From Acrocarpospora catenulata (lineage in GTDB: Bacteria > Actinomycetota > Actinomycetes > Streptosporangiales > Streptosporangiaceae), in the NCBI RefSeq assembly GCF_018476525.1, contig NZ_JAHCST010000003.1, forward strand, positions 124,001 through 188,000: DNA of 64,000 bases, in the 5' to 3' direction. Both the position numbers and the translations under genes were made by a program. Each line of letters begins with the position of its first letter. The first letter of the stretch is position 1. Below the pieces are notes generated by a model. The model searched no databases, was not told the origin of the DNA, and saw only the letters and a list, made by a program, of their open reading frames with translations. Below, piece after piece: positions 16,138-50,543 of this stretch.

Positions 16138-16926
16138 GTGGGCGGTCAGGTGCTTCGGATGCGTGAGGTGGCCGTCCGGCGCGACGGCGCGGCGCTGCTG
16201 CGTGGCATCGACTGGACGGTCCGGGAGGACGAACGCTGGGTCGTGATCGGCCCCAACGGCGCGGGCAAGACGACGTTGCTCCAGGTGGCGGCGTCGTTGT
16301 TGTTTCCGACCGAGGGTTCGGTGGAGATCCTCGGCGAGCGTCTCGGGCAGACCGACGTCTTCGAGCTGCGGCCCAGGATCGGCCTGGCCAGCGCGGCCCT
16401 GGCCGAGCGGGTGCCGCCGGAGGAGAAGGTCATCGACCTGGTGCTGACCGCGTCGTACGCGATTCTCGGCCGCTGGACCGAGGAGTACGACTCGGGCGAC
16501 GTGACCCGCGCGGTGGAGCTGATCGACCAGCTCGGCTGCGCGCACCTGATCCGGCGCCGGTTCGGCACCCTCTCCGAGGGAGAGCGCAAACGGGTGCAGA
16601 TCGCCCGCGCGCTGATGCCCGACCCGGAACTGCTGCTGCTCGACGAGCCCGCCGCCGGGCTGGACGTGGCCGCCAGGGAGGACCTGGTCAGGCGCCTGTC
16701 CGCGCTGGCCCTGGACGACAGGTCGCCCACCATGGTGCTGGTCACCCACCACGTGGAGGAGGTCCCGGCCGGGTTCACCCACATCATGCTGCTCCGCCAC
16801 GGCGCGGTGGTGGCCCAGGGCCCACTGGAGCAGGTGATGACCGCCGACAACCTCACGGCCACCTTCGGCGTGCCACTCAGCCTGGACCGCGGTGCCACGG
16901 GCCGCTGGTACGCCCGGCCCAGCTAA
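16138..16926 (+). CDS. ABC transporter ATP-binding protein, orphan
   Basis: A 262-residue ABC ATPase with Walker A GPNGAGKTT (about 38-46), an unusual signature LSEGERKRVQ (about 142-151), Walker B LLLLDEPAAGLD and switch histidine VTHHVEEV. The LSEGERKR signature and late TFGVPLSLDR segment resemble ModF/iron-siderophore-type ATPases. No permease or binding-protein gene lies next to it, so its partner is elsewhere or it has a non-transport role. It starts with GTG after GGGGGA. Fifteen bases after its stop a 92-base palindromic element begins. Confidence 0.85.
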   Translation: MGGQVLRMREVAVRRDGAALLRGIDWTVREDERWVVIGPNGAGKTTLLQVAASLLFPTEGSVEILGERLGQTDVFELRPRIGLASAALAERVPPEEKVIDLVLTASYAILGRWTEEYDSGDVTRAVELIDQLGCAHLIRRRFGTLSEGERKRVQIARALMPDPELLLLDEPAAGLDVAAREDLVRRLSALALDDRSPTMVLVTHHVEEVPAGFTHIMLLRHGAVVAQGPLEQVMTADNLTATFGVPLSLDRGATGRWYARPS

Positions 16927-16941: not shown

Positions 16942-17033
16942 ATTAACGAGAAACCCATCCCATAGACAGCCGCCCCGCCTCCGACCAGAGAGCTCGCCGC
17001 TGCGGCTGTCCAGATCACGACTTTCTCGTTAAT
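16942..17033. repeat. 92-base palindromic element, copy 1
   Basis: The element has outer arms ATTAACGAGAAA (16942-16953) and its exact complement (17022-17033), 11-base spacers, inner arms GACAGCCGC (16965-16973) and its exact complement (17002-17010), and a 28-base core. It is symmetric: 12-11-9-28-9-11-12. The reverse complement matches 49788-49879 at 76 of 92 positions without gaps. It starts 15 bases after the ABC ATPase stop and ends 73 bases before the SPFH gene. It looks like a non-autonomous palindromic repeat or a conserved 3'-end RNA structure; no transposase is visible. Confidence 0.88.
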
Positions 17034-17106
17034 ATGTCACCTTTCTGTCCGTAAAAGCACTGAACCAAATAGCATTCCAGTCGGGGTCAAAGACTGGAGT
17101 GTGTCC

Positions 17107-18054
17107 ATGGTTCAGCTCATCGCCGCCCTGATCGTGGTCGCCGTCGCGGGGTTCGTCCTGGCCAGAGCGATCAGAATCGTGCCGCAGGCAACGTCCAGAA
17201 TCGTGGAGCGTTTCGGTCGTTACCACCGCACCCTCAACGCCGGCCTCAACATCGTGGTGCCGTTCATCGACCGCGTCCGCGTCGAGGTGGACCTGCGCGA
17301 GCAGGTCGTCACGTTCCCCCCGCAGCCGGTCATCACCTCCGACAACCTGGTCGTCTCCATCGACACCGTCATCTACTTCCAGGTCACCGACCCCAAGGCG
17401 GCCACGTACGAGATCGCCAGCTTCATCGTCGCGGTGGAGCAGCTGACCGTCACCACCCTGCGGAACGTGGTCGGCGGCATGGACCTGGAGCGCACCCTCA
17501 CCTCGCGCGAGGAGATCAACACCGAGCTGCGCGGGGTGCTGGACGACGCCACCGGCAAGTGGGGCATCCGGGTCAACCGGGTGGAGCTCAAGGCGATCGA
17601 CCCGCCCGCCTCCATCCAGGACTCGATGGAGAAGCAGATGCGGGCCGACCGGGACAAGCGCGCCGCCATCCTCACCGCCGAGGGCAACAAGCAGTCCGCC
17701 ATCCTGACCGCCCAGGGCGAGCGGGAGGCCGCGGTGCTCCGGGCGCGCGGCGAGGCCGAGTCGGTGGTGCTCCGCGCGCAGGCCGACGCGGAGGCGCGGG
17801 CGATGCGGGCCAAGGGCGAGGCGGACGCCATCGCCATGGTCTTCAAGGCCATCCACGAGGGCGCCCCGGACGACCGGCTGCTCGCCTACCAGTACCTGAC
17901 GACGCTGCCCGAGATCGCCAAGGGCGACGCCAACAAGCTCTGGATCGTGCCCTCCGAGATGGGCCGGGCCCTGGAGAACCTGGGCGGCCTGTTCAGCCCG
18001 CCCAAGAATGAGCGCACGGCCATCCAGCAGGACGGTGGCACCCCCGCCTCATGA
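17107..18054 (+). CDS. SPFH/Band-7 membrane protein (stomatin/prohibitin-like)
   Basis: A 315-residue membrane scaffold protein. An N-terminal anchor (about 3-24) is followed by the SPFH domain with RIVERFGRYHRTLNAGLN, RVEVDLREQVVTFPPQPVIT and DNLVVSIDTVIYFQVTDP. A helical coiled-coil part rich in EAExVLRAQAEAEARA-type repeats runs from about 175 to 250. Such proteins oligomerise in membrane microdomains and often partner NfeD proteins or proteases; none is encoded next to it here. The ATG at 17107 sits 7 bases after GGAG and is preferred to the GTG at 17101, which is too close. Confidence 0.92.
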   Translation: MVQLIAALIVVAVAGFVLARAIRIVPQATSRIVERFGRYHRTLNAGLNIVVPFIDRVRVEVDLREQVVTFPPQPVITSDNLVVSIDTVIYFQVTDPKAATYEIASFIVAVEQLTVTTLRNVVGGMDLERTLTSREEINTELRGVLDDATGKWGIRVNRVELKAIDPPASIQDSMEKQMRADRDKRAAILTAEGNKQSAILTAQGEREAAVLRARGEAESVVLRAQADAEARAMRAKGEADAIAMVFKAIHEGAPDDRLLAYQYLTTLPEIAKGDANKLWIVPSEMGRALENLGGLFSPPKNERTAIQQDGGTPAS

Positions 18055-48850: not shown

Positions 48851-49717
48851 TCAGTGGGAGCGGTAGTGCCTGCGGAGGGCGATTCCGGCGGCGATGCCGC
48901 CCGCCACCGCTCCGGCCGCCGCCGCGACCGGCAGGCCGATCATGGTCGCCTTCCGCCCGGTGCGGAAGTCCCGCACCTGCCAGCCCTGCTCCCTGGCGTG
49001 CTCCCGCAGCTCGCTGTCGGGGTTGATGGCGTACGGATGCCCGACGATGGACAGCATGGGCAGGTCGTTGGCCGAGTCGCTGTAGGCCGAGCAGCGGGAC
49101 AGGTCGAGACCCTCCACCCGGGCCAGGGCGCGGATCGCCTCGGCCTTGGCCGGGCCGTGCAGCAGGTCGCCCACCAGGCGCCCGGTGTAGGCGCCGTCGG
49201 CGGTCTCCGCGACGGTGCCGAGCGCGCCGGTCAGGCCCAGCCGCCGGGCGATCACCTGGGCCAGCTCCACCGGGGTGGCGGTGACCAGCCAGACCCGCTG
49301 GCCGGCGTCCAGGTGGGCCTGGGCCAGCGCCCGCGCGCCGGACCAGATGCGGTCGGCCATCACCTCGTCGTAGATCTCCTCGCCGAGGGTGACCACCTCC
49401 TCCACCTTCAGGCCCGCCACGAACGCCAGCGCCATCTCCTTGGCCTTGGCCACGTGCTCGGGGTTCTCGTTGCCGCGCACCCGGAACATGGCCTGGCCGA
49501 AGGCGAACTTGACCAGGTCGCCGGTGGTGAACAGGCCACGCGAGGCTAGGCCCCTGGCGAAGTGGTAGATGGACGCGCCGCGGATCATCGTGTTGTCCAC
49601 GTCGAAGAACGCCGCCGCGGTGAGGTCGGGGTCCGCGCTCGGGGGCGGCGCGGCCCCCGCGGCCGCCACCTCACCCGCGATCTCTGCCGGATCCTGCCGT
49701 CTCAGTAGCCGCCTCAT
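48851..49717 (-). CDS. HAD-IB family phosphatase with C-terminal membrane helix
   Basis: A 288-residue SerB-like HAD hydrolase. Motif I is FFDVDNTMI (about 38-46), motif II has the threonine in VTATPVEL, motif III is the lysine around GPAKAEAI, and motif IV is [12 protein letters not shown] hydrophobic, Gly/Ala-rich segment (about 262-282) near the C-terminus should anchor it in the membrane. It may dephosphorylate a lipid or amino-acid phosphate, and its neighbour is an acyltransferase. A TAAGCT box lies 14 to 9 bases before the ATG, so its leader is very short. Confidence 0.9.
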
Positions 49718-49787
49718 AGCCCATCAGCTTAACCGCCGACCTGGGCGATTTCGGGTACGCGCTGTTAGCGGCGTATGACGGTTCAGT

Positions 49788-49879
49788 ACTAACGAGAAAC
49801 GCGTGATCTGGACAGCCGCAGCGGCGAGTCCTCTGGTTGGTGGTCATGCGGCTGGCTATGGGACGGGTTTCTTGTCAGT
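49788..49879. repeat. 92-base palindromic element, copy 2
   Basis: Same length and architecture as the copy at 16942, in inverted orientation. The outer arms ACTAACGAGAAA (49788-49799) and 49868-49879 have two mismatches, and the inner arms GACAGCCGC (49811-49819) and GCGGCTGGC (49848-49856) have one. The 28-base cores align without gaps. Its right end contains the stop codon of the minus-strand rsbN-like gene (49875-49877). Relative to the preceding gene it has the same orientation as copy 1. Confidence 0.88.
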
Positions 49880-50543
49880 AGCTGCCTGCTGTGTATCCCT
49901 CGATGTAGGTCAGGTACTTGTTGGCGCGCTCGCGGTTCTCCTCGTCCATCTTCGGGAGCATGGGCTCGATCTTGTTCCGCTGTTCGCGGGCGAAGATCCG
50001 GACCTTCGGGTCGGCCTTGGCGCGGGGTTTGACCCGGTTGAGGGCGGCGCGGGTGGTCTTGTCCATGTCCTGGAGGGTCTGCTGGAGCAGTTCCTTGCGG
50101 TCCGGGGTGGCGGCCTGGAGTAACGCGGCAGCCTCGCTGGCCCGGGCCCTGGCCGCCGTCATCTGGCGGTCCAGCCGGTCGGCGTCGTCGGTGGAGAGGG
50201 TGAGCAGGGTGGACTCGGCGGCCCGCTTGAGCGGGTAGAGCAGGTCACCGGGCACGGTGGAGTAGGTGATTATCGCGGTGACCACGGTGGTCACGATCAT
50301 CGCGCCCAGGGCGGCCCAGGGGCGGAGGCGGATCCATAACGGCACGGGCTTGATCTCGGGACGGTCGTGCGGCGGCGGGGTGGCCCTGACCCGTTCGGCC
50401 TCGTGGGTGCGGAGCAGCTCGTCACGGAGGCGGGCCCGGAACTCGGCCCGGGGGCCGCTGCCCAGCCGGTGGCCCAGGCCGCCGAGGCGCGCGAGGACGT
50501 CGCCGGAGAAGCGACCGGCGCGTCGCCGTCGCCACCACCCCAT
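49875..50543 (-). CDS. rsbN: RsbN-like anti-sigma factor (DUF5667)
   Basis: A 222-residue single-pass membrane protein. A basic N-terminal cytoplasmic part (about 1-72) would bind the sigma factor. One membrane helix (about 80-97) is followed by the DUF5667 region with STVPGDLLYPLKRAAESTLL and a helical extracellular domain. It lies 82 bases downstream of the BldN-like sigma gene on the same strand, as rsbN does after bldN in Streptomyces, where RsbN restrains BldN. The stop codon is inside a 92-base palindromic element. Confidence 0.88.
   Translation of the reverse strand: MGWWRRRRAGRFSGDVLARLGGLGHRLGSGPRAEFRARLRDELLRTHEAERVRATPPPHDRPEIKPVPLWIRLRPWAALGAMIVTTVVTAIITYSTVPGDLLYPLKRAAESTLLTLSTDDADRLDRQMTAARARASEAAALLQAATPDRKELLQQTLQDMDKTTRAALNRVKPRAKADPKVRIFAREQRNKIEPMLPKMDEENRERANKYLTYIEGYTAGSY

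Follow-up and report, generated by a model that had tools for sequence, protein, structure and literature searches.

The palindrome found twice in the window, the stretch of 64,000 nucleotides of the Acrocarpospora catenulata genome analyzed here, belongs to a real and mobile family of structured palindromes. In general terms the family is of a known kind, but its strand-specific pairing is unusual. Its members are probably non-autonomous mobile hairpins of soil actinobacteria (Streptosporangiaceae), about 90 bases long, that resemble MITEs or REPINs and are moved in trans. An enzyme acting in trans would recognize the paired boxes of the arms (GAGAAA and GACNGCCGC, 11 bases apart) and insert the element, preferably at TA. 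One strand would be recognized, or would act, as a single-stranded hairpin of DNA or RNA; this role is suggested because substitutions in the inner stem keep the pairing of one strand, with G.U tolerated and A.C rare. The unbiased, concerted changes of the tips, together with one inversion in place, would most simply arise if replication switched templates from one arm to the other.

The window copies and their family in Acrocarpospora

Both copies of the palindrome, at 16942-17033 and at 49788-49879, have the sequence, layout and coordinates described in an earlier note made from the letters alone; the reverse complement of the second aligns with the first without a gap, with 76 of 92 bases identical. 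The element proper, its parts and the adjoining genes are listed in Table 1. TA flanks copy 2 on both sides and copy 1 on the right side only. The remark in the same note that both copies start at or just after a stop codon is also right: copy 1 lies 16 bases beyond a TAA that ends at 16926, and the TGA of the DUF5667 gene is found within the tip of copy 2. In line with its statement that no transposase accompanies the element, none is present among the four genes flanking the copies (ABC ATPase, SPFH, HAD hydrolase and DUF5667).

Table 1. Positions in the window of the two element copies, their parts and the adjoining genes.
Feature	Position	Strand	Basis or remark
Element copy 1	16943..17032	- (strand whose hairpin retains G.U pairs)	Model R1, 105.6 bits on -, 38.1 on +
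Copy 1 outer arm, TTAAC tip and GAGAAA box	16943..16953		Sequence
Copy 1 inner arm GACAGCCGC, 11 bases past GAGAAA	16965..16973		Sequence; GAGAAA-N11-GACNGCCGC recurs in second genus
Copy 1 inner arm GCGGCTGTC	17002..17010		Sequence
Copy 1 outer arm, TTTCTC box and GTTAA tip	17022..17032		Sequence
Copy 1 right TA flank (left is GA)	17033..17034		Sequence
Element copy 2	49789..49878	+ (strand retaining G.U pairs)	Model R1, 103.4 bits on +, 32.7 on -
Copy 2 left TA flank	49787..49788		Sequence
Copy 2 right TA flank	49879..49880		Sequence
ABC transporter ATPase gene	16159..16926	+	16 bases from stop to copy 1
SPFH/Band 7 gene, after copy 1	17101..18054	+	
HAD hydrolase gene adjoining copy 2	48851..49669	-	Start from codon-usage gene-calling script
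DUF5667 gene	49875..50543	-	TGA stop inside copy 2 tip

Compared with 200 shuffles, copy 1 folds with z-scores of -5.5 on one strand and -4.7 on the other, and copy 2 with z-scores of -3.4 and -3.5; three of the four folds were unmatched by any shuffle, and the fourth was matched by 2 of 200. A 27-base pattern of the right arm, allowing up to three mismatches, occurs twice in the window versus a mean of 0.00 over 100 shuffles. A search of the window with the structure model recovered these two copies alone; the match ranked after them has an E of 3. At what is apparently the place of copy 2 (matched by eye), the related genomes G001 and G003 have a decayed half-element, and copy 2 seems to be old.

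A search of the genome and of relatives, as had been proposed with the original observation, gave further copies; the family is real, dispersed and intergenic, with conserved pairing. In the same genome, BLAST detected 24 places at E below 1e-10, plus weaker partial ones, and the covariance model R1, built from 23 copies, gave 31 distinct places with an E of at most 0.02. Copies are present in all five Acrocarpospora genomes searched. From the best-scoring matches listed in these genomes, 126 copies were examined (31 in the own genome, 46 in G001, 37 in G003, 7 in G002 and 5 in G004), none of which lies within a gene as called by our own codon-usage script rather than by annotation. When 297 genomes of the order were scanned under a stricter filter, seven had matches, four of them of this genus and three of a second genus, g4.

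Read along the strand that retains G.U pairs, the order of parts is tip (TTAAY), GAGAAA, 11 bases, GACAGCCGC, a variable apex, GCGGCTGTC, 11 bases, TTTCTC and tip. The 11-base parts provide a short stem, CGT/ACG, as well as an internal loop whose mismatches are retained: of 23 copies, 19 have G.G and 22 have A.G. Versions with a short apex retain the basal stem and the internal loop. The family has terminal inverted repeats, which is a feature of MITEs. Some copies are decayed; in four of them (L251, L253, L254 and L255) the left arm is retained and the right arm is mostly gone. Judged by paper titles, no literature naming this element was found.

Mobility, TA targets and stop codons

Judged from the genomes alone, the family is mobile. 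G001 and G003 are near sisters, and only 12 places are common to both among the 46 and 37 examined. When 24 unshared sites (12 found in G001 only and 12 in G003 only) were looked up in the sister, 20 were empty, three held a decayed copy and one was not found. A duplication of TA, with a single TA in the empty site and TA on both sides of the filled one, was seen at six of the 20 empty sites (E2, E3, E9, E23, E26 and E46), two of which have a nearby substitution. Of the other 14, E27 is one base off such a duplication, and the rest show TA on one side, an altered junction or, in E33, no TA. Among 102 copies, TA flanks the left end in 56, the right end in 43, both ends in 28 and neither end in 31. 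Because the comparison was between the two sister species, some of the empty sites may represent losses. At the place of E16, G001 (L243) has a decayed element and about 100 extra bases.

The two readings first offered for the palindrome fared differently. A site-specific palindromic repeat is nearer to the truth, except that the site is a preference for TA and not a fixed one. A functional 3'-end element with a fixed orientation to its gene does not agree with the counts: over the 126 Acrocarpospora copies, which include places shared between species, the upstream gene is co-directional at 61 and opposite at 64. The downstream gene is co-directional at 51 and antisense at 72 (p 0.07).

The proximity to stop codons is largely explained by the targeting of TA. 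Of the 126 copies, 50 enclose the stop codon of a neighbor and none a gene start; the junction falls within the stop codon of a called gene at five of the 20 empty sites (E1, E3, E9, E10 and E27). Stop codons are natural TA sites, because they contain 24 of the window's 196 TA dinucleotides that lie outside coding sequence (455 more TA dinucleotides are in coding sequence). The five junctions thus set beside this background are at most a modest excess, and selective loss of insertions within genes may account for what remains of it. At E1 and E9, TAG has become TA-T TAA, with the stop one codon later. In general, insertion in a TAA or TAG stop should be nearly harmless, as the tip would supply a new stop no more than one or two codons further on (TA-T TAA, TA-C TGA). 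The family shows how stop codons can serve a mobile element as safe sites when TA is scarce in the genome.

Pairing on one strand and the sister family in Nonomuraea

In an alignment of 102 Acrocarpospora copies fitted to the structure model, standard pairs fill 96.3% of the paired cells, versus 36-46% with the partner slid. Both-sided changes occur in 17 of 26 pairs, which none of 500 shuffles attained; an inverted doublet hairpin with compensatory changes is a feature of REPINs. Scored on the opposite strand, the structure reaches 88.0% versus 95.0% (23 copies; the opposite-strand alignment differs in the placement of one gap). In strong copies the score is about 100 bits for one strand and 27-45 bits for the opposite one, indicating that the choice of strand is set by the sequence.

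Changes were counted by parsimony on a FastTree tree. In the inner stem, Watson-Crick pairs changed to G.U 58 times versus 12 times to A.C (p 2e-8), which argues for selection of one strand as a hairpin; by these counts, the inner stem is retained as a hairpin on one strand. In the four outermost pairs the same tree gives 5 changes to G.U versus 6 to A.C, yet 20 double changes; on this evidence the tips change together, with no strand preference. Over all pairs, 32 further one-sided changes led to other mismatches. In both genera, one inner-stem pair (columns 33/79 of alignments A5 and A6) is sometimes A-U and sometimes A.G, as though either were allowed there.

Thirteen places are common to species, and the eight for which all copies are in alignment A5 were compared. 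The 10 comparisons, which are not independent and include three for a single place, gave 7 double changes, 13 changes on one side only that switched between G.U and Watson-Crick, 2 changes to A.C and 7 with other mismatches. The pairing retained at unmoved places could reflect a function in place. Flips were also seen among same-place copies (A-T to T-A, A-T to G-C and C-G to G-C), and at one place, that of E12/E31, the element is inverted between species within flanks that are 96-97% identical (L168 2002-2105, L139 2001-2104); independent insertion is a possible source of these opposite orientations.

Such flips and the inversion in place are what template switching would leave, and this process (quasipalindrome correction) might maintain the pairing by itself, with no selection on a hairpin. 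The tips, where changes are mostly double and G.U and A.C are balanced, are in agreement with it, and PMC8604942 describes how template switching homogenizes arms and inverts spacers. However, template switching predicts neither the 58:12 bias of the inner stem nor the retained mismatches of the internal loop, and as the sole cause of the pairing it is quite unlikely.

The two-box pattern GAGAAA-N11-GACNGCCGC matches 25 of 297 genomes of the taxonomic family, and the matches in genus g4 form a sister family. Loci of g4 show 83-93% identity to Nonomuraea gerenzanensis over the matched parts; thus, g4 is Nonomuraea or a very close genus. Model R2 has matches in 13 of 39 g4 genomes; G221 has 25 distinct places, and other genomes have down to a single one. 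The Nonomuraea element has the same layout in different letters (a CCTGC stem, a TAAATG/TGATGA loop and GACTGCCGC), and plain counts over 42 non-independent copies give G.U 100 versus A.C 26. Six Nonomuraea places were looked up in N. gerenzanensis; five were covered, and the element is absent at all five, with no clean duplication at the junctions. One copy in G221 (L320 1480-1588) is located just ahead of the ribosomal protein L11 gene and is absent there in N. gerenzanensis.

Among 53 independent Nonomuraea places (loci L305-L372), 42 have a co-directional downstream gene (p 2e-5) and 28 a co-directional upstream one. The downstream genes, recognized by eye, look unrelated and include those for ribosomal protein L11, a ThiS-like protein and regulators. 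This orientation bias is not predicted for a pure parasite; it may result from insertion near translation starts or from retention of a leader hairpin. A structured regulatory RNA, either a 5' leader or a 3'-end hairpin, that was spread by mobility and retained for its function on the adjoining gene would be expected to show this bias, pairing of the G.U-specific kind found here, and pairing retained at unmoved places. However, in Acrocarpospora the orientation is random upstream and slightly antisense downstream, the downstream genes of Nonomuraea share no apparent relation, and turnover between sister species is high. No terminator-like site was found at copy 1, the one copy scanned, and Rfam gave no match in the window and none in eight loci at E up to 1. 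A regulatory RNA is rather improbable as the nature of the family.

The preferred reading, a mobile hairpin moved in trans, can be drawn in more specific terms: a gene-less element that travels or acts as one defined strand (a DNA or RNA hairpin), an enzyme that reads the paired GAGAAA and GACNGCCGC boxes and the fixed, mismatched internal loop, insertion with a preference for TA, stop-restoring tips for life in stop codons, and a role as an oriented leader element in the second genus. Taken as a whole, this specific form is unlikely.

The search for a mover and comparison with known systems

A parent or mover was searched for in the genus, and none was found. A classical MITE of IS630 (the Tc1/mariner type), with a parent that was lost or lies outside the sample and a hairpin that is a by-product of terminal inverted repeats, would resemble Correia, ERIC and RUP, for which PMC2229807 lists a small size, TA at the ends, arms that are inverted and stem loops that are stable. 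Six DDE_3 matches were found, in three of the five genomes, and the ends of the element are absent from all six fetched loci; G003 and G004 have no DDE_3 match, though both hold copies. It is possible that an IS630 parent exists outside the sampled genomes. Independent terminal repeats, however, predict neither paired changes of the tips nor a G.U bias on one strand, and we consider an IS630 origin somewhat unlikely.

A REPIN, moved as single-stranded DNA by a RAYT (TnpA-REP, a Y1 transposase), would likewise have two inverted conserved boxes, a long hairpin and common compensatory changes, as described in PMC3116915. Eleven Y1_Tnp matches were found in the genus, and the ends of the element are absent from the fetched stretches. 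G004 has copies, yet no Y1 match at a threshold of E 0.001. The two Y1 loci of G003 contain a long ORF that, by eye, we take to be similar to TnpB of IS200/IS605. The TA duplication at some sites is not a known feature of REPINs, and a REPIN of this kind is very unlikely.

Matches of a pattern scan for orphan arms, followed at 11 listed places, were decayed halves and short-loop versions, with no long element. In viral contigs the patterns gave 0, 0 and 1 contig; the single match was taken as chance, having no model match better than E 0.81. The Acrocarpospora element has no match in plasmids and phages, and the Nonomuraea element gave one weak match involving N. gerenzanensis, which is not a model match. 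Pattern hits in Lachnospiraceae, Opitutaceae and G059, as well as single hits in genera besides Acrocarpospora and g4, were taken as chance. Because neither ends shared with IS630 elements nor a neighboring RAYT were found, membership in the IS630 MITEs or in the REPINs cannot be claimed.

It is not known what moves most small palindromic mobile elements or what their hairpins do. The present family provides more than 100 copies, filled and empty sites in close species, and a measurable strand bias in pairing; thus, the question whether selection acts on the hairpin as a single strand, and what exerts it, becomes directly testable.

Integron attC sites are imperfect palindromes used as strand-specific single-stranded hairpins, with core boxes RYYYAAC/GTTRRRY and an integrase. 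Unlike attC, the window copies have no integrase among their four flanking genes; by analogy, the element resembles attC as an imperfect palindrome with a strand-specific hairpin. The TA-terminated bacterial MITEs Correia/NEMIS, ERIC and RUP are shorter than 200 bp, encode no protein, have inverted TA ends and a stable hairpin, and are dispersed, according to the passage on them in PMC2229807, where similarity to IS ends is given as not looked for or not found, RUP excepted. The family described here is similar in being short, non-coding, dispersed and mobile, with inverted ends, a hairpin and TA; as far as the descriptions go, it is set apart by its GC-rich actinobacterial host, the strand-specific pairing of its inner stem and its co-changing tips. 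It differs from an IS630-derived MITE in that its ends are not common to the six IS630-type loci found. From the REPIN/RAYT system it differs in the TA duplication at some sites and in having no copy near the 11 Y1 matches. REPINs are described in PMC3116915 as extragenic, with two inverted conserved boxes and a spacer that form one long hairpin with compensatory changes; the family shares with them the inverted boxes with spacer, the long hairpin, the compensatory changes and the extragenic location.
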